The notes below the pieces were generated by a model. That model did not search any database. It was not told the origin of the DNA and saw only the letters and a program-made list of their open reading frames with translations. A stretch of 64,000 nucleotides of DNA from Prosthecobacter sp. SYSU 5D2 (GTDB lineage: Bacteria; Verrucomicrobiota; Verrucomicrobiia; Verrucomicrobiales; Verrucomicrobiaceae), in NCBI RefSeq assembly GCF_039655865.1, contig NZ_JBBYXL010000009.1, forward strand, positions 186,001 to 250,000, written 5' to 3'. Positions 7,578-54,916 of this stretch are shown here, piece by piece (within the stretch, counting starts at the first letter, position 1; the number at the start of each line of letters is the position of its first letter). A program made the position numbers and the translations under genes.

Positions 7578-8396
7578 TCATTTGCCGGTCCATTTTTCAG
7601 TGAACTGGCCTAACGGATGAAGTTCATAACGGCGGACAATCATCTCTGCGCCTTCCGTCTGGATGCAGATGCGGCCTTCGGCAGGCTTGCACTCAAAGGC
7701 TTCATTGACGAGCTGGCCGTTGACGAAGTATTGCAGCGTGTCGCCTTTGGCAATGACTTCCAGGCGGTTCCAATCGCCGATGGGCGCATCGGTATCGTGC
7801 TTGCCACGGAAGTTGATTTTGTCGGCCCAGTCCTCATCGCGCTTTTCCCAGTTGATGCGGCCTTTGGTCACCACCTGGCGGGGTGCGCCCTTCTTCCAGC
7901 GTTTCTCCTTGTCGCGGTCCAGTTCATACTCCGCCGTCACGCTGGTGATGAGTTCCGTGCCGTCGGGCAGCTTGGGTGACAGGACCAAAATATCGCCAAT
8001 GCCGCCTTCGATGATCTGCGCCTCGATGCTGGCCATCCAGGTATCTGAGTAGGCGCCATGCGGGCCGTAGGCGTGAACGAGGATGCCGTTGTCACGGGTG
8101 CGATCCGCGCGCTTGCCCCAGGTGTTCGGGCCCCATTTGAAATCCACCACGAGATGGTAGTCCTTGTATCCCTCTTTGGTGACCATGTAGCCATAACCGC
8201 GACCACTGATGTTGAGCTGGCCGTCCTTGAGCTGAAAGACCTCGCTGGCCGGGTCTGCGAAATCCTGTTTCGGATTAATGTGGTATTCCACCTCACCGGC
8301 CTTCATGAGGTCCAGGACGTTGATCTTCTCTTTGACCGGTTCAGCAGAAAAGAGGGCGGAAGTGAATGCCAGGAGGCAAAGTGAGGTCAGGCGCAT
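7578..8396 (-). CDS. Secreted DUF1080 / 3-keto-disaccharide hydrolase domain protein
   Basis: This 272-residue protein has a signal peptide (MRLTSLCLLAFTSALFSAEP) and one DUF1080 (PF06439) jelly-roll domain. Characterised members of the family hydrolyse 3-keto-glycosides, but the chemistry here is not proven. Its whole length, including the signal peptide, is nearly identical to the first 270 residues of the large fusion protein at 34526-38020; identical blocks include GYGYMVTKE and GPHGAY. This implies a recent duplication or gene conversion. The ATG at 8396 starts the signal peptide; upstream in-frame codons are rejected as low-quality sequence. It is followed codirectionally by the barrel glycosidase. 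Confidence 0.88.
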   Translation of the reverse strand: MRLTSLCLLAFTSALFSAEPVKEKINVLDLMKAGEVEYHINPKQDFADPASEVFQLKDGQLNISGRGYGYMVTKEGYKDYHLVVDFKWGPNTWGKRADRTRDNGILVHAYGPHGAYSDTWMASIEAQIIEGGIGDILVLSPKLPDGTELITSVTAEYELDRDKEKRWKKGAPRQVVTKGRINWEKRDEDWADKINFRGKHDTDAPIGDWNRLEVIAKGDTLQYFVNGQLVNEAFECKPAEGRICIQTEGAEMIVRRYELHPLGQFTEKWTGK

Positions 8397-8562: not shown

Positions 8563-10272
8563 TTAAGGCAGCGGGAAGCGCTCGTTCACGGTGGCGATCT
8601 CGGCGCGGATGGAGGCGAGGACTTCGGCGTTGTCCTTGTTGGTCAGCGCTTTGTCAATCCAGTTGGCGATCTGCACCATCTCGGCCTCTTTCATGCCACG
8701 CGTGGTGACGGCAGGCGTGCCGATGCGGATGCCGCCGCCGAGGGTGATCTTCTCGGTATCAAACGGGATGCCGTTTTTGTTCACGGTGATGCCGGCGTGG
8801 TCCAGCGTTTCGCTGGCGACCTTGCCGTTCAAGCCGCGCGGACGCAGGTCCACCAGCATGAGATGATTGTCCGTGCCGCCGCTGACGATGCGGTAGCCGA
8901 GCTCTGACATGCGGGCGGCCAGGGCTTGGGCGTTCTTGACGATCTGCTTCGTGTAGTCGGCAAACTCAGGCTTCAGGCACTCGCCAAAGCACACGGCCTT
9001 GGCGGCGATGACGTGCATGAGCGGGCCACCCTGGACGCCGGGGAAGACCTGGCTGTTGATCTTCTTGATGAGGTCTTCGTTGTTGGTCAGCACGATGCCA
9101 CCACGCGGTCCGCGCAGGGATTTGTGCGTGGTGCTGGTGACGAAGTCCGCGTATTCCATCGGGTTCGGGTGCTGGCCACCGGCGACGAGACCGGCGATGT
9201 GGGCCATGTCCACGAAGAGATAAGCGCCGACGCTTTTGGCGATCTCGCTCATCTTCTTGAAGTCAATGATGCGCGGATACGCGGAGGCACCGGCGGTGAT
9301 CATTTTGGGCTGCTCGCGCTTGGCGACTTCGGCGAGTTCATCGTAATCAATGAGCTCGTTGTCCTGGCGGACGCCATACTGGCAGAAGTTGTAGAAGCGG
9401 CCGGAGAAATTGGCAGGGTTGCCGTGAGTCAAGTGGCCGCCGTGGGCCAGGTTCATGCCCAGCACCTTGTCACCCGGCTGCAGCACGCTGAAGTAAACGG
9501 CGGCATTGGCCTGGGAGCCGGAGTGCGGCTGCACGTTGGCAAATTTGGCACCGAAGAGCTTGCAGACGCGGTCAATGGCGAGCTGCTCCACCTTGTCCAC
9601 TTCTTCACAGCCACCGTACCAGCGCTTGCCGGGATAACCTTCGGCATACTTGTTGGTCAGGCAGGAGCCCTGCGCGGCCATGACGGCCTTGCTGGTGAAG
9701 TTCTCGCTGGCGATCAGCTCGATGTTGTTCTGCTGGCGGTGCTGCTCGCCACGCACGATTTCGGCGACGGCGGGGTCTGCGGATTCCAGGATGGTGAGGG
9801 GATGGAGTTGTGGCTGGGTGTTCATTTTGGCGACTCTGCGTCCGTGACGGCCACCGGCGAAGGGCGTCTTCAACCAGGCGTTGAGGATGTCCTTGGTGGT
9901 GGCTTCGGAAGTGGTTTTGGCGGCGAGGCACAGGACGTTGGAGTCGTTGTGCTCGCGGGTGATGGCGGCGGTTTCGGCATCGCTGACCAGGCTGGCCTGG
10001 ATGCCGGGATGACGGTTGGCGGCGATGCTCATGCCGATGCCCGTCGTGCAGACGAGGATGCCGGCATCGGCATCGCCAGAGAGGACGCTCTGGGAGACGA
10101 GCTCCGCATAGTCCGGGTAGTCCACGGAATCACCCGAATGGGTGCCGAAGTCCTGGACGGTATAACCGTTGCTTTTGAGATGGGCGACGACCGCCTGCTT
10201 CAGCACCACGCCGCCATGGTCGGAACCGATGGCGAGGGTTTGCGGCAGGTCTGGGGCGGTGGAGGTGCTCAT
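8563..10272 (-). CDS. rpiB-glyA: Fused ribose-5-phosphate isomerase B and serine hydroxymethyltransferase
   Basis: This single 569-codon frame encodes two complete enzymes. Residues 1-149 are RpiB (ribose-5-phosphate/ribulose-5-phosphate interconversion), with GSDHGG, the active-site [16 protein letters not shown] (Cys75, Thr77) and the usual C-terminal GGRHGRRV. Residues 150-569 are a full-length PLP-dependent SHMT (serine plus THF to glycine plus methylene-THF), with [22 protein letters not shown] and the PLP lysine in [13 protein letters not shown] (Lys384). Met150 sits exactly where a free SHMT would start, so an internal start could also release SHMT alone; no good Shine-Dalgarno precedes it. 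Separate rpiB and glyA genes are the rule, so this is a true fusion or a lost stop codon. A strong terminator follows. Both enzymes are cytoplasmic. Confidence 0.93.
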
Positions 10273-34525: not shown

Positions 34526-37500
34526 ATGCTGCGCCTCACCTCCCTCTGCTTTCTTGCTCTCGGTTCCGCCCTTATTGGGGCTGAGCCAGTCACCCAAAAA
34601 ATTGATGTGCTGGAGCTGATGAAGGCCGGTGAGGTGGAATACCACATCAACCCGAAGGCTGATTTCCATGATCCGGCCAAGGAGGTCTTCCAGCTCAACG
34701 ACGGCCTGCTGAACATCAGCGGGCGGGGCTACGGCTACATGGTCACCAAGGAAAGCTACAAGGACTACCACCTGGTGGTGGAATTCAAATGGGGCCCAAA
34801 GACCTGGGGCAAACGCGAGGACCGTACCCGGGACAATGGCATCCTGGTCCACGCCTACGGCCCGCATGGAGCTTATGGCGACACCTGGATGGCGAGCATT
34901 GAGGCACAGATCATCGAAGGCGGCATTGGGGACATTTTGGTACTTTCCCCCAAGCTGGCCGACGGCACGGAGCTGGTCACCAGTGTCACGGCGGAGATCG
35001 AGCTGGACCGAGACAAAGAGAAGCGCTGGAAGAAGGGCGCCCCCCGGCAGGTGGTGACGAAAGGCCGCATCAACTGGGAAAAACGCGATGAGGACTGGGT
35101 GGACAAGATCAACTTCCGCGGCAAAAACGACCCGGATTCCCCAGTGGGTGAGTGGAACCGCCTGGAAGTCATCGCCAAAGGCGACACGCTGCAATACTTC
35201 GTCAACGGCCTGCTGGTGAACGAGGCCTTTGACTGCAAGCCCGCCGAGGGCCGCATCTGCATCCAGACGGAGGGCGCGCAGATGATCGTGCGCCGTTATG
35301 AACTTCATCCGTTAGGCCAGTTCACTGAAAAATGGAACCCCATCCAGGCCAGCGGCGGCAGCGATGTCAGCGTGCGGGACGGCCAGACAGCCGCCCTCTC
35401 CCCGGAGGAGTCCTTGAAAAAAATCCAGCTGGATGGCGACTATGAGGCGCAACTGGTGGCCGCTGAACCGCTCGTCATGGACCCGGTGGAAGTGACCTGG
35501 GATGCGGAAGGCCGACTGTACGTGGCGGACATGCGCGACTATCCGCTGGGGCCTGAGCCGGGCGAACCGGCCCTGTCCCGCATCCAGCTTCTCACCGATG
35601 AGGACGGCGACGGCCGCATGGACAAGGCCGTGACCTTTGCCGACCACGTGGACCATGTGCAGGGGCTGCTGCCCTACAACGGCGGGCTCATCGCCACCAC
35701 CCGCACGCAGATTCTTTTCCTGAAGGACACCGACGGCGACGGCAAGGCGGACATCAATGAGCCTCTGATCAAGGGCTTCAATCCGCGCCACAGCCAGCTC
35801 CAGGTCAGCGCGCCGCGCTGGGGTCCGGATAACAAAGTGTATTTCAACAACGGCCTGGACTCCAAGGAGATCTATCCCGTGGTAGGCAGCGATCCGGCGA
35901 ATGTCACCCGCTTCAATTTCCGCTGGGATCCGAAGACGGGCAAGATCGAGCCAACGAGCGGCTACGGCCAGTATGGCGGCGCGTTTGATGACTACGGGCG
36001 GCATTTCTTCTGCTCCAACCGCAACCCGCTGATGTTCGCCGTCATGCCGTATGAGGCCGTGATGCGGAACCCGTATGCCGGCATCGGCCAGGGGCATGAG
36101 GACATCGCCCCGGCAGGTGCGGAGACGCGAGTGTATCCGCTCATGATCACGCACACCACCGCAGATGCGCATGCGGGGACAAACACCGCTTGCAGCGGTC
36201 TGGGAGTGTATCGTGGGCCATTGATGCCGGAGCTGAAGAACAACGTCTTCGTGCCGGATCCGACCGGACAGCTCGTGACACGATACAAAGTGGAGCCCAA
36301 GGGCGCCTCCCTGAAAGCCACGCGTGTGGGTGACCGCACGGAGTTTTTCCGCAGCAGCGATGAATGGTGCCGCCCGGTGAACATGACCACCGGCCCGGAC
36401 GGCGCGATGTACATCTGTGACATCTACCGCCGCTGGATTGACCACGCCCGCTTCTTCCCGGAGGAGTTTGTGAAGAACAACGACATGCGCCAGGGCGAAA
36501 ACGAAGGCCGCATCTGGCGTATCGTGAAGAAGGGCCAGAAGGTGGCCAAAGTGGAGCCTGCGCCCAAGGATGCCGGGGAACTGAAAGCCTGGCTGAAGCA
36601 CGAAAACGCCTGGCAGCGGGAGACCGCGCAGCGTCTGCTGGCGGAACAAGGCGCAGCCGGCGGCGGCGAAACCGTCGTGGACGCCAGCCGCAAGACCTTC
36701 TTTGACGTGCTCAACAAGCCAGATGCGGACGCCGCCGCAGACGCCGCCGTCATCCAAGCACGCGCGACCGCCATCAGCGAATCGCCGGAAGACGCCTGGA
36801 TGACGCGGGCCGTCCTTAGCGCCAGCACGCACTCCGCCGGGGCAGTTCTGGACGCGGTGATCCGCCAGGGAAAAGTCACGCAGACCTATTCCGCCCAGCG
36901 CATGGAGACCCTGCGCTCCCTGGCCAGTGCAGCAGCGGCAGCAGGGCACCCAGATGACTTTGCCCTGGCCCTCAAAGGCGTGCAGGAACAGGCCGGCAAG
37001 CTGACCTGGTGGAAACCGGCCCTGCTGCAAGGCCTGGCGGAAGGCCTGCCCAAATCCGGCGGCAAGCTGGGTGCCAAAACCCTGGCCGCCTTTGTCGCCA
37101 AACCGCCCGCCGGGTCCGAGGCCGCAGCCACGGAAATCAGCGCCTTGCTCACCCTCGTGGATGAGGTCATGAGCGATGTCAAAGCGCCCCTGGACCAGCG
37201 CCTGGCCGTCATGCCCTTGCTGGCCCAGCGCCCCTGGGAAAAGGCCGAGCCCGTCCTGCGCACGCTGCTGAAAGACGGCCAGCCGACAGAGCTGCAAACC
37301 GCCGCCCTGGCCGTGCTGAAGAAGTATGGCGCGGACAAGGCCTCCCCTTTGGTCTATGACCTGCTGCCCACAGCCGGCCCCACCATCCGGCGGGATCTGG
37401 TGACGCTGCTCACCTCCAATGCCAAAACGGCGCTGGCCTTGTTCAAGCGCATGGACCAGGGCGAGTTCTCCCCTGCCCTGGTGGATGTGGAAACCCGCTG

Positions 37501-38020
37501 GCGCTACCAGCGCGGCACCGGTGAAATGCGCGACCTGGCCGTGAAGCTCTTCGGCCAGGCCAGCGAGGACCGCGCGGCGGTCATCACCAGCTACATGGAC
37601 AGCCTGCATCTGAAAGGCAATGCCGCCAAAGGCCAGCAGGTCTTTTCCATGGTCTGCATCACCTGCCACAAACACGGCGACCTGGGCGTCGAAGTCGGCC
37701 CGCCCCTTTCCGATGTGAAGGCTAAGCCGCCGGAGGCGCTGCTGTCCGACATCCTGGACCCCAACCGCATGGTGGAGGCCCGCTGGTGCGCCTATACGGT
37801 GGAGACCAACGACGGGCGCCTGCTCAGCGGCCTCATCGTCGCCGAATCCGCCGACAACGTGACCCTCAAAATGATGGGAGGCCTGAGCGAAACCATCCAG
37901 CGCAGTCAAATTAAGAAGATGGTCAGCACCGACAAAAGCCTCATGCCCCCCGGCCTGGAAGCCGCCATCACCCAGGAACAGATGGCCGACCTCCTCGCCT
38001 TCCTCCGCGGAGCACCGTGA
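34526..38020 (+). CDS. DUF1080 - PVC-type dehydrogenase - HEAT-like - cytochrome c fusion
   Basis: This 1164-residue exported protein has four parts. They are a signal peptide; a DUF1080 domain (to about residue 270) almost identical to the stand-alone gene at 7578-8396; a membrane-bound-dehydrogenase propeller of the PVC type (about 295-680, with LLTDEDGDGRMDKAVTFAD, LKDTDGDGKAD and DGAMYICDIYRRWIDH); and an alpha-helical HEAT-like region (about 690-1020). It ends in a haem domain with CITCH (Cys1044, Cys1047, His1048). Such dehydrogenase-haem proteins are typical of Planctomycetes and Verrucomicrobiota. The fusion suggests periplasmic oxidation of a sugar coupled to cytochrome electron transfer and to 3-keto-glycoside cleavage, which is inference. 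It may be read through from the upstream operon. Confidence 0.87.
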   Translation: MLRLTSLCFLALGSALIGAEPVTQKIDVLELMKAGEVEYHINPKADFHDPAKEVFQLNDGLLNISGRGYGYMVTKESYKDYHLVVEFKWGPKTWGKREDRTRDNGILVHAYGPHGAYGDTWMASIEAQIIEGGIGDILVLSPKLADGTELVTSVTAEIELDRDKEKRWKKGAPRQVVTKGRINWEKRDEDWVDKINFRGKNDPDSPVGEWNRLEVIAKGDTLQYFVNGLLVNEAFDCKPAEGRICIQTEGAQMIVRRYELHPLGQFTEKWNPIQASGGSDVSVRDGQTAALSPEESLKKIQLDGDYEAQLVAAEPLVMDPVEVTWDAEGRLYVADMRDYPLGPEPGEPALSRIQLLTDEDGDGRMDKAVTFADHVDHVQGLLPYNGGLIATTRTQILFLKDTDGDGKADINEPLIKGFNPRHSQLQVSAPRWGPDNKVYFNNGLDSKEIYPVVGSDPANVTRFNFRWDPKTGKIEPTSGYGQYGGAFDDYGRHFFCSNRNPLMFAVMPYEAVMRNPYAGIGQGHEDIAPAGAETRVYPLMITHTTADAHAGTNTACSGLGVYRGPLMPELKNNVFVPDPTGQLVTRYKVEPKGASLKATRVGDRTEFFRSSDEWCRPVNMTTGPDGAMYICDIYRRWIDHARFFPEEFVKNNDMRQGENEGRIWRIVKKGQKVAKVEPAPKDAGELKAWLKHENAWQRETAQRLLAEQGAAGGGETVVDASRKTFFDVLNKPDADAAADAAVIQARATAISESPEDAWMTRAVLSASTHSAGAVLDAVIRQGKVTQTYSAQRMETLRSLASAAAAAGHPDDFALALKGVQEQAGKLTWWKPALLQGLAEGLPKSGGKLGAKTLAAFVAKPPAGSEAAATEISALLTLVDEVMSDVKAPLDQRLAVMPLLAQRPWEKAEPVLRTLLKDGQPTELQTAALAVLKKYGADKASPLVYDLLPTAGPTIRRDLVTLLTSNAKTALALFKRMDQGEFSPALVDVETRWRYQRGTGEMRDLAVKLFGQASEDRAAVITSYMDSLHLKGNAAKGQQVFSMVCITCHKHGDLGVEVGPPLSDVKAKPPEALLSDILDPNRMVEARWCAYTVETNDGRLLSGLIVAESADNVTLKMMGGLSETIQRSQIKKMVSTDKSLMPPGLEAAITQEQMADLLAFLRGAP

Positions 38021-39166: not shown

Positions 39167-39931
39167 TTATCTGCGGTTGAAGGCAACACAGTCCTCATAC
39201 CGGGCACCGCTGCCGCCAAACATGTCCAGGGCGCTGCCGATGGTGCCGTCCACTTTCCCCAGGCTGAGCTCGTCCAGGCGGGCCAGATCGCCCAGATGGC
39301 GGATGCCGCCGGCATAGGTCATGGGAATGGGGCTGTGGTCCCCTAAAAAGACCACGAGATCCTCGTCCATGCCTTCGCATTTGCCCTCCACATCCACGGC
39401 GTGGATGAGGAACTCCGCGCAGCAGCCGGCCAGGTGTTTCAGCGTTTCAGGCGTGACATGCAGATCCGTGAGCGTCTGCCAGCGGTTCATGGCGACAGTC
39501 CAGCCATCGGCGGTGGCTTTGCAGCTCAGGTCAATGACAAGGCGGTCCCTGCCCGCAGCCGCGACCATTTTTTGCAGCCGCGTTTCTGAAAACGTGCCGT
39601 CCGTTTCAAACAGGTAGCTGGTGACGATGACGTGGCTGGCCCCGGCTTCCAGGTATTCTGCTGCATTGCAGGGGCGGATGCCGCCGCCGACCTGGAGACC
39701 GCCCGGATACGCCCCCAGGGCGGATTTGGCAGCGGCTTCATTGCCAGGCCCCAGGAGGATGACGTGGCCGCCGGTGAGGCCATCTGCCTGATATTGACGG
39801 GCATACCAGGCAGGATCGCGGTCGCTGACAAAGTTGGTTTTTAAACCGCTGCCGGAATCGCTAAGGCTGGAGCCGACAATCTGCTTCACCTGGCCGTCGT
39901 GGAGATCAATGCAGGGGCGGAAACGGGTCAT
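39167..39931 (-). CDS. hisA: HisA, eukaryotic/HIS6-type ProFAR isomerase
   Basis: This 254-residue enzyme isomerises ProFAR to PRFAR, the step before HisF-HisH in histidine synthesis. It is of the divergent HIS6 type known from yeast and plants and from scattered bacteria. The N-terminus is RFRPCIDLHDGQVKQIVG, followed by GGHVILLGPGN, LQVGGGIRP, the catalytic region LVIDLSCKA and MTYAGGIRHLGDL. The typical bacterial HisA signature is absent. It is divergent from rsfS, with a 191-base gap holding TTCAGT repeats. Confidence 0.9.
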   Translation of the reverse strand: MTRFRPCIDLHDGQVKQIVGSSLSDSGSGLKTNFVSDRDPAWYARQYQADGLTGGHVILLGPGNEAAAKSALGAYPGGLQVGGGIRPCNAAEYLEAGASHVIVTSYLFETDGTFSETRLQKMVAAAGRDRLVIDLSCKATADGWTVAMNRWQTLTDLHVTPETLKHLAGCCAEFLIHAVDVEGKCEGMDEDLVVFLGDHSPIPMTYAGGIRHLGDLARLDELSLGKVDGTIGSALDMFGGSGARYEDCVAFNRR

Positions 39932-40648: not shown

Positions 40649-42469
40649 TCATTCCCGCTGCAGTGCACTGACCTCCACGTTGGCTTGACGCAGGCGGGCG
40701 GAGATTTCCCGAGTGATCTCGTAAAGAAGGGAGATTTTTAAAGCCGGTCGCGTTTCATTGAGGGCGGCAAACCATGCACGAGGAATGACGAGGCAGTTCA
40801 CGAAGCCGAGGGCGATGACATCCGCTGAGCGAGGTGACGCATCCAGGAAGGCCATCTCACCGACCGTCATGCCAGCGGTCAGCACGTCCACACGCTTTCT
40901 GTTCTGGTTTTCTGTGCGGATCTGCACTTCCACGCTGCCTTCCAGAAGCACCAGCATTTCATCCGCCATCTCCCCGGCCGTGATGAGCGCCTGCCCGGCC
41001 TCGTAACGCCGGCGGGTCAGTTCCGTGCGCATAAGTTCCAGATCCTCTGCCGTGCAACTGCGAAACAACGCGCACTGCTCCAGAGGAATGTTCCCCGCCG
41101 GCCGCCAGGAGGCTCCCGTCACCTCCAGGAGCAAAGCATCCTCGCACGCCTCCAGTGCAGCATCTTCTGTGGCAAACAGCATGCTGGGGGTGAATCCTGC
41201 ATCTGGCAGCCGTGCCTCAAATTTACCCGGATGGCAGATGACCATCCGGACCCCCTGTTTGATGAGTTGCGACCGCAGCTCCCCTATCAAACGCAGACTG
41301 ACGGCATCCACACTGACGACCGCGCGCAGGTCCAAAATGAGCTGTAAACAGCCCGCGTCAGCCAGTTGCTGAGCTTTCCTCAACACAGGCTCCAGTGTGG
41401 TAAAAATAAGCCCTCCCTGCAGTGCCAGGATCTGGATGCGTGAACCATGACGGCGCAACGATTCCCGTGCCGCAGGTGGCAGGCGGCGACGCGCGACCAC
41501 CTCCCCACCATGATAGGCCTGGCGCACCGCCGTCCGCGGAGTCGCCGCCGGATTCAGCATGTGCAGAGCCAGCTCTTGGGAAAGGTCCATGCAGACTTTG
41601 ATTCCACGCAAGCTGTTCCCCTGGGTGTCAAGCGGCGGTGAAAACACACCAATGCCCAACTGCCCGGGCAGCACTGCCAGGATACCCCCGCCCACGCCGC
41701 TCTTGGCCGGCAGCCCCACACGATACACCCATTCGCCAGACCAGTCATACATGCCGCAGGTGGCCATGACCCCCAGCACATTGTCCACATACTCTGCCGG
41801 GATCACCCGCTTTCGGGTCACGGGTTGCACCCCCTGGTTGGCCAGTGTCGCCCCCATCAGTGCCAGATCCCGGCAGGTTACGCGTATGGAGCACTGCTTA
41901 AAATAAGTCTCCAAGATCTCATGCGGATCTTCATCCAGGATGCCAAAATTCCTCAAAAGCCAGCCAATGGCCCGGTTCCGGTGTCCGGTCTCGCTTTCAC
42001 TTCTGTAAATGGACTCATCAATATCCAGCTGGCGCCCGGCAAAGGCGCTCAGGTAATCCAAGATCCGGTCAATGCGTGATTTGCCATCCTCCGGCAAAAC
42101 CTGACCGCAAGTGGCGATGGCACCGGCATTGATCATCGGGTTAAACGGCACTCCGCTGCCTTCCTTCAGGCTGATCGCGTTGAAGGCTTCCCCCGAAGGC
42201 TCGACGCCAATGCGCGACAGGATGTGCTTCTCCCCCCGGTCCTGCAATGCCAGGCCATAGGCCAAAGCCTTGGACACGGACTGGATGGTGAAACTGTGAC
42301 GTGTATCCCCCACCTCATAAACATGACCGTCACGGGTGGCGATACAGATGCCAAAAAGCCGGGGGTCCGCCTTGGCCAGCTCCGGAATATAATCGGCGAG
42401 ATGACCGTCCATGACGGACGCATAGCGAGCATGAAGCACCTGTAGATACTCCTGGATGGGTGAGAGCAT
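40649..42469 (-). CDS. glsA: Glutaminase fused to STAS and cyclic-nucleotide-binding domains
   Basis: This 606-residue protein has three domains. Residues about 1-310 are a serine-dependent GlsA glutaminase (glutamine to glutamate plus ammonia), with ADYIPELAKADP, the catalytic Ser-Lys pair in FTIQSVSKALAYG, FNPMINAGAI and SGVGGGILAVLPG. Residues about 330-440 resemble a STAS domain (LQLILDLRAVVSVDAVSLRLIGEL). Residues about 460-580 are a cNMP-binding/CRP-like domain (AGQALITAGEMADEMLVLLEGSVEV, PRSADVIAL). The accessory domains suggest allosteric control by a nucleotide second messenger and protein partners. The STAS domain has no obvious anti-sigma partner here. A small hairpin abuts the start codon. 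Confidence 0.88.
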   Translation of the reverse strand: MLSPIQEYLQVLHARYASVMDGHLADYIPELAKADPRLFGICIATRDGHVYEVGDTRHSFTIQSVSKALAYGLALQDRGEKHILSRIGVEPSGEAFNAISLKEGSGVPFNPMINAGAIATCGQVLPEDGKSRIDRILDYLSAFAGRQLDIDESIYRSESETGHRNRAIGWLLRNFGILDEDPHEILETYFKQCSIRVTCRDLALMGATLANQGVQPVTRKRVIPAEYVDNVLGVMATCGMYDWSGEWVYRVGLPAKSGVGGGILAVLPGQLGIGVFSPPLDTQGNSLRGIKVCMDLSQELALHMLNPAATPRTAVRQAYHGGEVVARRRLPPAARESLRRHGSRIQILALQGGLIFTTLEPVLRKAQQLADAGCLQLILDLRAVVSVDAVSLRLIGELRSQLIKQGVRMVICHPGKFEARLPDAGFTPSMLFATEDAALEACEDALLLEVTGASWRPAGNIPLEQCALFRSCTAEDLELMRTELTRRRYEAGQALITAGEMADEMLVLLEGSVEVQIRTENQNRKRVDVLTAGMTVGEMAFLDASPRSADVIALGFVNCLVIPRAWFAALNETRPALKISLLYEITREISARLRQANVEVSALQRE

Positions 42470-50753: not shown

Positions 50754-52541
50754 TCAATGCCAGGGCACGCGGGCACTGCGACGGCGCAACCCCAGCCCCA
50801 TGAAGCCTGCCAGCAGGAGGACGGCACGCCCTGGTTCTGGAATGACCGCCGCGCCGAGCACCAGGAATCCATCCCGTTGAAACACATACATGCCTGGCAG
50901 GTCTGAGACGACCTCAAAGAGGCTGGCGACGTCCCCGGTGATGTCGCCACCGACTTCCAAAAAGGCCCAGTCGTAAAGCTCAGGGTCGGTGATGGCCGCA
51001 GCATTGCCGACATGGATGGTGATTTTCTCTGTCTCTCCGGCCACCAATGAGAGGTTGTTTTCAAGGGTAAACACCAGGTCTGAGGAGCCGCCGGAGGGAT
51101 GGGCATCAAAGGCCAGGGCGCTGCCGGCTTCCAGCGTGAGGCCTTGCAGGGTGATGGGGGCCAGTGAACCGGCCACTTCAAGGACGCCGTTGTTTTTCAC
51201 CACCACAGGGCCGCTGCCCAAAGCGCCCTCGTGATTGATGATGAGACGTGCTTCGGTACCGGTATAACCGCCAATGCTGCTGCCCCCGGTGAAGGTATTG
51301 CCAGCGACAAGGGTGGTGGTTCCGGCCAGGGCATTCAATGCCAAGCCACCGGCCAAAGCCACGTGGGCACCGGCGGCGGCCCCGGTTTTAGTCAGGTAAT
51401 AACCGCCACTGACATCCGAGTGAAAAAGTGTGAGCGCACGGCCGGCAGCGGTGCTGGTGAGGGTGGCCGCAGAGATGATGCCGGGTGCGGCAGGCACGGC
51501 ATCTGCCAGCAGTGGATCCGCACCGATGTTCACCGCGCCGCCAGCGCCCAGGGTGATGGTGCCTGCTCCGGCAGCCCCCACCTGCATGAGACCGGCGGTG
51601 GCCACGTTCAACGTGCCGGTGCTGCCACCCGTGCCGATGGACAGAGCTCCGGTGCTGCGCCATGCGCCGCCCGTCTCAATGGTGGCCGTACCGGTGCCAT
51701 AAATCGGCGCGGGGGATGCCCCCTCAGCGCCGTTATAAAAACCGATGTATGCCGTGCTGCTGTTTTCCACCACGCCGGAATCGTTGACGACCAGGCTGCC
51801 CACGCCGGAATGACCGACATAAAAGCTCGTCGCCGTCCACTTGCTGCCCGTGCCGGTGACGGTGACATTGGCAGTGCCTGCGTTGCGATTAAGATCCTGG
51901 CCGTAACCGGCGACGTAGGCGCCCGCAGTCTTCACGAGACCGCCGTTTTCCACCAGTACCGTCGCGGCCCCCTGATAGCCCATGAGCAGGGTCCCGACGG
52001 CCATCTCGCCGCCGCTTTTCACATTGAGCAGGCCGTTTGAGCCGGCATACCGGCCGACGTGGGTGGTGATGGTGGTGGTGAATTTGCCCCCGTTGCTGAC
52101 GGTCAGGCTGCCATTCCCCCGGGCAGCGATCATGGTCTGGCCGCTGGTGGTTTTATTGATCACGCTGCCAGCGCCGTCCAGCAGGACGGAGCCGGTTGAG
52201 CCTGCAGCGTCAGCGATGTAAAAGGTGCCGGTAACTGTGAGCATACCGCCGGAGGAGGCTTTGGTGACTTCCAGCGTACCACTGTTGATGCTGAAGGCAG
52301 CGGCAGACTGGGAGGTGTCCTGCACCGTGATGGTACCGCCGTTATTCAATAATACCGGTGTCGTTGTCGTGGGGAGGGATGGGTAAGGGGTCGCCCCGCT
52401 CCAGGTCCAGTTGGTGGGCTCCTGCCAGGCCCCGGTGCCGGTGTTATTCCAGGTGGCAGTCTGGCATTGAGCCACTTGTCCCAGACCTGTGGCGATAAGG
52501 AGACCCAAGAGGCATTTGAGGGAAAAGGGAATCAACTTCAT
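50754..52541 (-). CDS. PEP-CTERM autotransporter-repeat protein A
   Basis: This 595-residue exported protein has a signal peptide (KCLLGLLIATGLGQVAQC), then repeated beta-helix units of the autotransporter-associated kind (GSLTVSNGGKF, GTLNVATAGLMQVG, GTATIETGGAW). It ends in a PEP-CTERM sorting signal: VIPEPGRAVLLL, a hydrophobic stretch and RRR. An exosortase should cut and process it at the cell surface. No autotransporter barrel is present. It is a tandem paralogue of the next gene, alike over its whole length. The ATG at 52541 begins the signal peptide; its leader has a C-tract/G-tract pair (see 52553-52629). Confidence 0.85.
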   Translation of the reverse strand: MKLIPFSLKCLLGLLIATGLGQVAQCQTATWNNTGTGAWQEPTNWTWSGATPYPSLPTTTTPVLLNNGGTITVQDTSQSAAAFSINSGTLEVTKASSGGMLTVTGTFYIADAAGSTGSVLLDGAGSVINKTTSGQTMIAARGNGSLTVSNGGKFTTTITTHVGRYAGSNGLLNVKSGGEMAVGTLLMGYQGAATVLVENGGLVKTAGAYVAGYGQDLNRNAGTANVTVTGTGSKWTATSFYVGHSGVGSLVVNDSGVVENSSTAYIGFYNGAEGASPAPIYGTGTATIETGGAWRSTGALSIGTGGSTGTLNVATAGLMQVGAAGAGTITLGAGGAVNIGADPLLADAVPAAPGIISAATLTSTAAGRALTLFHSDVSGGYYLTKTGAAAGAHVALAGGLALNALAGTTTLVAGNTFTGGSSIGGYTGTEARLIINHEGALGSGPVVVKNNGVLEVAGSLAPITLQGLTLEAGSALAFDAHPSGGSSDLVFTLENNLSLVAGETEKITIHVGNAAAITDPELYDWAFLEVGGDITGDVASLFEVVSDLPGMYVFQRDGFLVLGAAVIPEPGRAVLLLAGFMGLGLRRRSARVPWH

Positions 52542-52552
52542 GAGCAATGTTT

Positions 52553-52629
52553 CCCCCCCTTTGGTATTGCAACACCATGCAGGAGCCCAACCAGCAGGCG
52601 GGACTTCGTGATAACATTGTCGGGGGGGG
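52553..52629 (-). promoter_or_regulatory. Leader of PEP-CTERM gene A with complementary C and G tracts
   Basis: On the minus strand the leader holds a run of eight C (52629-52622) and, 62 bases later, a run of seven G (52559-52553) that ends 11 bases before the start codon, where a Shine-Dalgarno would be. The runs could pair and hide the ribosome-binding site. The arrangement is repeated at 54567-54635 before the paralogue. Confidence 0.5.
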
Positions 52630-52762
52630 CAAGATTGGATAAGCACCGGCCATGCCATTTGTTTCCCTGTGAACCCCACCATATCACAGAAGTACCGACA
52701 TTCCTCTTCTCCGTGTGCAGTGGTGTGTGCGATGGCCTCTGCATCCGCCTGCGGCCTAACCA

Positions 52763-54556
52763 TCATCGGCGGCGACGAGACCCCAAACCCATCAGGCCGC
52801 CAAGCAAGAGGACGGCACGCCCTGGTTCTGGTATGACAGCCATGCCGAGAACCAGAAACCCGTCGCGCTCAAAGACATAGAAATCAGGCACGTCGGAGAT
52901 CACTTCGAAGAGGTCCGGGTCATAACCGGTGATGCCACCGGTGGTCTTGAGGAAGGCCCAGTCATACAATTCCGGGTCAGTGATAGCAGCGGCATTGTTT
53001 AGGTAAATGGTGATCTTTTCCTCAGGATTGGTGACAAGGGACAGCATGGTGCTGATCTCAAATTTTGGCGCGTCCGTTCCACCGACAGGATGGGCATCAA
53101 AAGCCAGGGCGCTGCCGCCTTGCAGGGTGAGGCTGCTGAGGGTGGTGGTGGCCACGCCCGCAGCGACCTCCAGCGTGCCATTGTTCTGGACAAGCACAGG
53201 CCCGCTGCCGAGCGCGGTGGCATGACTGAGAATGAGGCGGGCCTCAGTGCCGGTATAACCGCCGATGCTGCTGCCACCGGTCAAGGTATTTGCCCCAATG
53301 AGAGTCGTCGTGCCGGCCAGGGCATTCAATTTCATGCTGCCAGCCAAAGTAACGTGAGCCCCGGCAGCGGCACCCGTTTTAGTGAGGTGGTAGGCACCGG
53401 TCATGTCCGTGTGAAACAGCGTCACCGCACGGTCCGTGGCCCCGGTGATGGTGGCGGCATTCACTATTCCCGGCGCGGCAGGAAAGGCTTCGGGCAGAAG
53501 CGGATCCGCGCCGATGTTGAGGCTGCCTTGGTCCCCCAGGGTGATGGTGCCATTGCCGGAATTGACCAGGACACTGCCCGCGCTGGCAAGGTTCATCGTA
53601 CCTGTGCCGCCGTTGCCGCCGATGGTGATGCTGGCCGTGCTCTGCCACAGACCGCCGGTGCGAATATTCACCGTTCCCGTGCCATAGATGGGCGGTGTGG
53701 GAACAGTGCCCACTGGAGCGGAAGAGGAGACTCCGCCATTAAAATGGCCGATGGCTGCCGTGCTGGTGCTGGCCACAACGCCAGAGTTCTCAATGTTCAT
53801 GGTGCCGGTGCCGGAATGGCCCACATAGAGAACGGTCGCCTCCCACCGGCTGCCCTCTCCCGTCACATTCACTGTTCCCGTCCCGCCACGCCGGTTGGCA
53901 TCCTGGCCGAAGCCACCAATGTAGCTGCTCCCGGTCTTGACATACCCTGCGGATTCCACATTCAGCGTGCCATTGCCGCGATAACCCAAGATGAAAGTGC
54001 TGGAGGAGACGTAGCGACCGGCCGTATTGACGGTCAGGGTGCCCACGCCTGTGGCACCGCTGCTGGAGCCCAGCCCCACATGCGTGGTGCCGACGACATT
54101 GACCCGGCCCTCATTGCTGACGACCATGCTGCCCGTGCCTGCGCTGCCAATGTGCATCTGGGCATTGCCTGTCTTGTTGAGGATGCTGCCCAGGCCATCC
54201 ACCAGGACGGACCCGGTGCGCGCTGCCAGGCTGCCAATGTGAAACGTGCCCGATACTCCAAGCACACCGCCCGTGCTGCCTTTGGTGATTTCTATCCGGG
54301 CGGTGTTCATGGTCAGAACGCCTGCCGACTGGGTAGTGTCCTGCACCACCGCCGTGCCAGCGTTGATGAGCACCGTCGTTGCCGTATCCGGCAGGGAGGT
54401 CGGCGGAATGGTGCCCGTCCAGCTCCAGTTAGCCGGTTCCTCCCAGTTTCCAGGAGCCGCGTCCTGCCAGGTGGCCGTCTGGGCTGTCAACAAAGTGCTG
54501 CTGGCCAGGATCAGGCAACTGGCGGAATAAAACTGGCGGAGGAAGGGACTTTTCAT
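52763..54556 (-). CDS. PEP-CTERM autotransporter-repeat protein B
   Basis: This 597-residue paralogue of protein A, directly upstream on the same strand, has the same order of parts. A signal peptide ends LTAQ, beta-helix units follow (GTLTVNTAGRYVSS, GTGTVNVTGEGSRW, GTVNIRTGGLWQSTA), then a conserved LTKTGAAAGAH and SSIGGYTGTEARL block, and the PEP-CTERM tail VIPEPGRAVLLLGGLMGLG with four Arg. The C-terminal halves of A and B are closely alike and the N-terminal repeats more divergent, as expected for surface proteins. The exact role (matrix, adhesion) is not shown. No exosortase gene is in this window. Confidence 0.85.
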   Translation of the reverse strand: MKSPFLRQFYSASCLILASSTLLTAQTATWQDAAPGNWEEPANWSWTGTIPPTSLPDTATTVLINAGTAVVQDTTQSAGVLTMNTARIEITKGSTGGVLGVSGTFHIGSLAARTGSVLVDGLGSILNKTGNAQMHIGSAGTGSMVVSNEGRVNVVGTTHVGLGSSSGATGVGTLTVNTAGRYVSSSTFILGYRGNGTLNVESAGYVKTGSSYIGGFGQDANRRGGTGTVNVTGEGSRWEATVLYVGHSGTGTMNIENSGVVASTSTAAIGHFNGGVSSSAPVGTVPTPPIYGTGTVNIRTGGLWQSTASITIGGNGGTGTMNLASAGSVLVNSGNGTITLGDQGSLNIGADPLLPEAFPAAPGIVNAATITGATDRAVTLFHTDMTGAYHLTKTGAAAGAHVTLAGSMKLNALAGTTTLIGANTLTGGSSIGGYTGTEARLILSHATALGSGPVLVQNNGTLEVAAGVATTTLSSLTLQGGSALAFDAHPVGGTDAPKFEISTMLSLVTNPEEKITIYLNNAAAITDPELYDWAFLKTTGGITGYDPDLFEVISDVPDFYVFERDGFLVLGMAVIPEPGRAVLLLGGLMGLGSRRRR

Positions 54557-54916
54557 GCACAAGACTCCCCCCAAGGATTTGGGCGTGGACTCTCAGCGAC
54601 GGCGCAAGGCTATCCTGATGAAAGGCTTCGGGGGGATGTTTCTTGATCAAGCATCCGACATGCCATCACGCCCGCCTTCAGCGACACTCAGCACAGAAGT
54701 ATCGGGAAGAAGCCGTTCAGCACGCAGCCGCGCAATCAGGGCCAGACGTGGCAGCGCCGAGTGAAGCGGTCGCAAGGGCTGCTGATCAAAATTTGTCCTG
54801 CCGAGACAAAATCTCAAAATCCCATTTGACGATGATGCTCATGAGACTTAATCGCAGACCGCTCTATTGCGACTGATACTCACTTCCGTTTCCACCCGAG
54901 AGACGACTCTGACTCC
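54557..54916. other. Non-coding divergent region between PEP-CTERM gene B and the TonB receptor
   Basis: This 360-base gap serves both divergent genes. Its left part is the protein B leader (54567-54635). The right part, before the receptor, turns AT-rich and has TTGACG at 54826 with a weak TAATCG 17 bases later as a possible promoter, the 8-bp palindrome CTCATGAG within 54838-54845, and no convincing Fur box. I see no gene in it. Confidence 0.5.
54567..54635 (-). promoter_or_regulatory. Leader of PEP-CTERM gene B with complementary C and G tracts
   Basis: The minus strand has six C (54635-54630) and, 57 bases on, six G (54572-54567) just before the start codon at 54556. The order, spacing and the upstream GGCATG motif match the leader of gene A. 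Base pairing would mask the G-rich ribosome-binding segment. Confidence 0.5.

Follow-up and report, generated by a model that had tools for sequence, protein, structure and literature searches.

Organization of the fusion gene

The window, by which we mean the whole 64,000-nucleotide stretch of DNA that was analyzed, carries on its forward strand an open reading frame (ORF) at 34526-38020 that starts with ATG and encodes a chain of 1164 amino acids, at exactly the coordinates of the original prediction. The chain begins with a putative Sec-type signal peptide, MLRLTSLCFLALGSALIGA (34526..34582), which was recognized by eye, evolves fast, and was modeled with low confidence. It is followed on the same strand by a divergent DUF1080 domain (PF06439) with a beta-sandwich fold (residues 20-265; 34583..35320), assigned by Pfam, AlphaFold2, and Foldseek, and by a DUF7133/TIGR02604 beta-propeller (residues 289-680; 35390..36565), assigned by Pfam/NCBIfam, a model of the isolated domain, and Foldseek. 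Next comes a HEAT-like helical-repeat region (residues 681-1029; 36566..37612), in which AlphaFold2 placed about 19 consecutive helices (residues 683-1028). The chain ends in a TIGR02603 cytochrome c domain (residues 1030-1162; 37613..38011), identified with NCBIfam and the PDB structure of Kustd1711, with the haem-binding motif CITCH at residues 1044-1048 (37655..37669).

The AlphaFold2 model of the whole chain, built from an alignment of 45 sequences, had a mean pLDDT of 85 and a pTM of 0.65; at this pTM, the placing of the parts relative to each other is unreliable. A flexible linker was modeled around residues 276-285, between the beta-sandwich and the propeller. The original prediction had described a four-domain fusion, and both the profiles and the structure prediction bear this out: a signal peptide and four folded parts, with CITCH in the last, make up one secreted chain encoded by one ORF. 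An ORF of 865 amino acids on the reverse strand overlaps the fusion gene. It resembles nothing found and the domains are all in the forward frame, and it is most likely a shadow.

Conservation of the fusion in related genomes

We searched for the same fusion in other genomes and found it in 34 of the 35 genomes of the same genus, counting the window's own. Some of these copies are cut by contig ends, and the copy in genome G024 holds a stop. The lone exception (G032) is 78% complete and had no copy at the threshold used. The fusion also occurs in further genera of the family and in other families of the order, and was seen in families f1 and f3; Verrucomicrobiaceae bacterium UBA2429 is one carrier. 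In an evenly drawn sample of farther relatives from the phylum no fusion was found, and these genomes had a stand-alone DUF1080 of this subfamily or a propeller protein. Because the parts occur in the same order and in one frame in nearly all genomes of the genus as well as in families f1 and f3, the fusion is not due to chance. A chance join or a frame artefact was ruled out, as full-length ORFs are conserved and dN/dS is low.

Between the window and its relative G019, dN/dS was 0.055 for the DUF1080 domain, 0.041 for the propeller, 0.135 for the helical region, and 0.056 for the cytochrome. At 0.04-0.14, dN/dS shows purifying selection on each of the four parts, and the value for the DUF1080 domain indicates that it is roughly as constrained as the remaining parts. 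Conservation and selection together support that the parts of the chain work together. The fusion is thus real, old, and conserved; it is also uncharacterized, and our literature search found no study of it.

Repeated joining and exchange of the DUF1080 domain

We constructed a tree of the DUF1080 subfamily and found that fused and stand-alone copies are interleaved, which requires about five changes of state. One row labeled as alone in this tree (L037) is the interrupted G024 fusion, and another (L039) is a DUF1080 joined to something else. In the trees of the two domains, the fusions of G018 and G009 (L069 and L071) have propellers in the larger clade of the genus and DUF1080 domains in the window's clade. 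This conflict points to a different history of the DUF1080 domain in these two copies, by module exchange or possibly gene conversion.

Other arrangements were also observed. In G236, a propeller-haem protein of 985 amino acids and a 62-63% identical DUF1080 of 269 amino acids are encoded by consecutive separate genes, flanked by a ceramidase-like gene on one side and a further TIGR02604-type haem protein on the other. In Akkermansiaceae UBA2367, two DUF1080 genes form a cluster with the gene of such a haem protein, which they flank. G115 and G037 have kept the propeller-cytochrome protein, and no DUF1080 of this kind was seen beside it. The window's genome itself has three other ORFs joining DUF1080 and cytochrome c (1268, 1197, and 1439 amino acids), which differ in make-up and contain ordinary DUF1080 domains; two of them carry other inserts (SGNH lipase, LamG). 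The 1268-residue ORF (L082:2615-6418) reads DUF1080, SGNH lipase, DUF7133, HEAT, and cytochrome c. These other joins and arrangements suggest that DUF1080 has probably been joined to this kind of haem protein more than once.

The window also contains a stand-alone paralogue of the DUF1080 domain at 7578..8396 on the reverse strand, with 88% amino acid identity. The two copies form an inverted repeat of 807 nt that is 84% identical (7578-8396 on the reverse and 34530-35336 on the forward strand) with 26 kb between them. The paralogue adjoins a gene at 8566-10272 on the reverse strand that encodes ribose-5-phosphate isomerase B (LacAB_rpiB) and serine hydroxymethyltransferase in one chain of 569 amino acids, a relative of the same length being found in G161. 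In G019 and G034, the paralogue is beside this same gene and directly upstream of the fusion. Compared with that layout, the 26-kb gap indicates that the window has been rearranged.

Gene context

Among the genomes compared, the genes flanking the fusion were not conserved, and they point to no sugar pathway. Since the neighbors differ among genomes, the genes upstream in the window (esterase, aldolase, FAD enzyme, MFS, BNR) were not taken as evidence, and gene context was dropped as a guide to the substrate. In the window's genome, separate DUF1080 and TIGR02604 genes lie within 3 kb of each other in only about three pairs, near a rough expectation estimated by hand. Three further loci on the reverse strand of the window were recorded. 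The gene at 39170-39931 encodes a HisA for which TIGR02129, the eukaryote-type model, gives a far better match than the bacterial one. The gene at 40652-42469 combines glutaminase, STAS, and cyclic-nucleotide-binding domains. At 50757-54574 are tandem large genes of 670 and 603 amino acids with 73-74% nucleotide identity in blocks and no Pfam match.

A divergent DUF1080 subfamily

The N-terminal domain matched 3keto-disac_hyd (DUF1080, PF06439) over residues 56-257, with E about 1e-20 to 5e-22 and a score of 79.4 bits against a gathering cut-off of 26.8, and pLDDT was mostly >90 in its AlphaFold2 model. Foldseek retrieved 3u1x, 9fbe, 3s5q, 3osd, 8tda, and 8v31 (E about 1e-6 to 1e-5). The nearest solved folds include a 3-keto-glycoside eliminase/hydratase with 2-hydroxy-3-keto-glucal, two 3-keto-2-hydroxy-glucal hydratases, and BT2157. 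BT2157 has been described as a 3-ketotrehalose hydrolase, and DUF1080 proteins neighbor LacABC-type dehydrogenases in several bacteria, Caulobacter among them (PMC9007349). An endo-glucanase/xanthanase activity has been reported for one DUF1080 (PMC10881899).

The window's domain matches the Pfam profile from position 27 on, the LFDGK..GW start being missing. Alignments of the subfamily with ordinary DUF1080 proteins showed the motif QTEG (residues 247-250; 35264..35275) where many ordinary members, including the solved ones aligned, have the canonical QDHG or QxHG. The Glu that replaces the histidine is invariant in 19 sequences of the subfamily; the papers searched did not say whether the QDHG histidine is catalytic. 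Because this subfamily is divergent and lacks the usual histidine, homology does not suffice to assign 3-keto cleavage to it, and the original prediction's assignment of this activity to the domain is not supported. The same 19 sequences, fused and stand-alone and with identity down to 45%, have 44 invariant columns of about 250, many of them charged. Judged from this alignment, the subfamily looks like one with a working site, perhaps for a different substrate. The domain may be an enzyme of different specificity, or it may bind sugar.

The latter would make the DUF1080 domain a carbohydrate-binding module holding a haem-linked oxidoreductase on a glycan, comparable to CBM1 in the fungal AA12-cytochrome pyranose dehydrogenase. 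The window's genome has 37 DUF1080 matches, and among its other fusions the domain is an add-on to a Ser/Thr kinase, a sulfatase, a cupredoxin-PA14 protein, and a trypsin-like protease, which makes sugar binding a serious rival. DUF1080 also occurs together with LamG in another haem protein of this genome, its matches overlap with those of CBM66 (PMC5673643), and it has seemingly been exchanged between fusions. However, the number of invariant columns, many of them charged, is above what we would expect for a binding module, and stand-alone secreted DUF1080 copies exist too. We regard a pure binding role as a tentative reading, and somewhat unlikely. The Ser/Thr protein kinase of the window's genome (L084:1-3102) has its DUF1080 at the C-terminus.

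A propeller with a sugar-dehydrogenase fold

The propeller matched DUF7133 over residues 292-669 (E 5e-113, Pfam) and TIGR02604 over residues 305-670 (E 8e-110; 367.6 bits against a cut-off of 122.2). Modeled alone, it reached a pTM of 0.91 (AlphaFold2), and the best 41 PDB matches in Foldseek belonged, with few exceptions, to HHIP, sGDH, aldose dehydrogenase, or AA12, with HHIP, the Thermus putative glucose dehydrogenase 2ism, sGDH 1cq1, AA12, and aldose dehydrogenases at the top. A search of the propeller profile against PDB sequences gave nothing significant, and a search of a viral fold library gave nothing informative. The isolated model and the PDB fold matches make the claim of a dehydrogenase fold a good one. 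The original prediction of a dehydrogenase propeller therefore stands as to the fold but not as to the active site.

The score of the propeller against GSDH (PF07995) was 14.7 bits, below the gathering cut-off of 25. When its profile was aligned to the GSDH proteins encoded in the window's genome (probability 98.5), the RN of GLRNPWG came to lie opposite GYGQ-YGG; the catalytic His of sGDH (HxGG..FGPDG) had no counterpart in QLQVSAPRWGPD in this alignment. At the positions that we take to be the PQQ site of sGDH (catalytic His and Arg-Asn pair), the propeller thus appears to have Gln for the His and Gly-Gln for the PQQ-binding Arg-Asn. The matching column is His in just 2 of 30 aligned DUF7133 domains. 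From the late Arg-x-Arg motif of sGDH, the second Arg is presumably kept (R616), the first being W614. SNRNP was considered as the Arg-Asn pair and dropped, since the profile alignment puts GYGQ there. PqqC was searched for across the phylum, with five genomes of the class over the cut-off and none in the window's genome or in the genomes of its family that were searched; PqqE had only matches below cut-off. A PQQ enzyme by plain homology is not supported by the His/Arg alignment, the PF07995 score, and the lack of PqqC. The propeller probably does not use PQQ bound in the way of sGDH, and PQQ taken up externally or another cofactor is possible.

Two EF-hand/dockerin-like loops of the form DxDGDGxxD probably bind Ca in a structural role: DEDGDGRMD (residues 358-366; 35597..35623), in which D358, D362, and G363 are near-invariant, and DTDGDGKAD (residues 401-409; 35726..35752), in which D401 and D405 are invariant. 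A polar set late in the propeller (D612, W614, R616, D632, R635, and H640) is strongly conserved and is a candidate for a site of its own.

The propeller could instead be a non-enzymatic platform for binding or assembly, as in HHIP, with the haem serving electron transfer or sensing for other proteins. HHIP, its best fold match, is to our knowledge not an enzyme, the active-site residues of sGDH are absent, and the window's genome has 23 TIGR02604 ORFs over cut-off with very different partners. Against this, the conserved polar set and the covalent haem suggest redox catalysis, and we consider such a platform improbable.

Helical region and haem domain

The helical region matched HEAT_2 weakly, with 20.1 bits against a cut-off of 27.7, and its profile matched designed HEAT-like alphaRep chains. 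The haem domain matched TIGR02603 over residues 1031-1161 (E 1e-41; 142.1 bits against a cut-off of 68.15) and was nearest to the C-terminal domain of Kustd1711 both in sequence and in Foldseek. In that domain the haem has His/Met ligation and a potential of about +350 mV that is tuned by Ca, and an Hfq-like insertion of five strands is present (PMC11791136). In the AlphaFold2 model, the window's domain is small and helical, with five extra strands (residues 1089-1134; 37790..37927) placed as in the Hfq-fold 'nose' of Kustd1711. Met1140 (SLMPPG; 37943..37945) aligns with Met292 of Kustd1711, the distal ligand mutated in 7zs1/7zs2, and is the predicted axial ligand, so that His/Met ligation is predicted from the alignment.

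Interpretation

We propose that the gene encodes a haem-linked sugar oxidoreductase that is secreted and has a glycan-acting domain tethered to it, a reading that we hold at about even strength. In this reading, a member of the PVC-type heme-binding CxxCH family, a c-haem protein secreted to the periplasm or the surface, would have gained an N-terminal DUF1080-type sugar domain. The propeller, with its soluble quinoprotein sugar dehydrogenase fold, would bind or oxidize a saccharide, and the tethered His/Met haem would relay the electrons to a carrier in the periplasm. The DUF1080 domain would bind or cut the same glycan, and the helical region may space or dock the haem. Several points count against this reading: the papers searched gave no measured activity for any DUF7133/TIGR02604 protein, the His and Arg positions of sGDH are not conserved, the GSDH score is below cut-off, the best fold match HHIP is not known as an enzyme, the genes around the fusion vary, and G115 and G037 have the propeller-cytochrome protein with no such DUF1080 seen next to it.

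Oxidation at C3 followed by elimination or hydrolysis is one possible chemistry and not the default. The original prediction had combined these steps in one polypeptide, the propeller oxidizing a glycoside at C3, the haem removing the electrons, and the DUF1080 domain eliminating or hydrolyzing the 3-keto-glycoside. Its electron-transfer half is plausible, as the predicted His/Met cytochrome c would be able to accept electrons, but we found no evidence of a C3 oxidation feeding it; C3 oxidation with 3-keto cleavage is a hypothesis beyond the reach of homology. The 3-keto-glycoside eliminase/hydratases among the DUF1080 relatives, the DUF1080 genes beside LacABC-type dehydrogenases, the fold of the propeller, and the strong constraint on the fused DUF1080, with its many invariant polar residues, speak for the full sequence of steps. 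However, the QDHG histidine is Glu throughout the subfamily, sGDH-type enzymes oxidize C1 and not C3, their catalytic His is missing here, and PqqC was not found in the window's genome or in those of its family that were searched. We consider this full scheme unlikely. A related version, in which a PQQ-independent propeller dehydrogenase with its own c-haem oxidizes a glycan and the divergent DUF1080 cleaves the oxidized product in one chain, is rather unlikely as well.

PVC bacteria have dozens of propeller-cytochrome proteins and DUF1080 domains whose purpose is mostly uncharted, and their natural and conserved fusion suggests that both act on the same thing. The fusion also offers a single protein whose own haem can report oxidation of a substrate. 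If true, oxidation followed by cleavage would amount to the recently described 3-keto route of glycan breakdown carried out within a single chain, and a one-chain oxidative glycan-cleaving enzyme would give a function to the large uncharacterized DUF7133 family.

Comparison with known systems

Like the PVC-type heme-binding CxxCH proteins (TIGR02604/PF23500 with TIGR02603), the fusion has a propeller and a C-terminal haem over the curated cut-offs, whereas most of the 23 copies over cut-off in the window's genome have no DUF1080 in the same ORF. It shares fold and PF06439 with 3-keto-glycoside eliminase/hydratase and BT2157, but the known DUF1080 enzymes are separate proteins, and the fused domain lacks the LFDGK..GW match and has Glu for the His of QDHG. 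The propeller fold is that of sGDH, aldose sugar dehydrogenase, and AA12; the fusion differs in lacking the His/Arg of the PQQ site, in its GSDH score below cut-off, and in having c-type rather than b-type haem. AA12 pyranose dehydrogenase also unites a carbohydrate module, such a propeller, and a cytochrome. With Kustd1711, the diheme cytochrome of Kuenenia, the fusion has in common the cytochrome c fold, the expected His/Met ligation, and the five-strand insertion, but its one haem is at the end of a multidomain chain. The logic of a dehydrogenase combined with DUF1080 is also that of the lactose 3-dehydrogenase LacABC of Caulobacter (PMC9007349). There, in contrast, these are encoded by separate genes. 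The dehydrogenase fold of LacABC also differs from that of the fusion's propeller.
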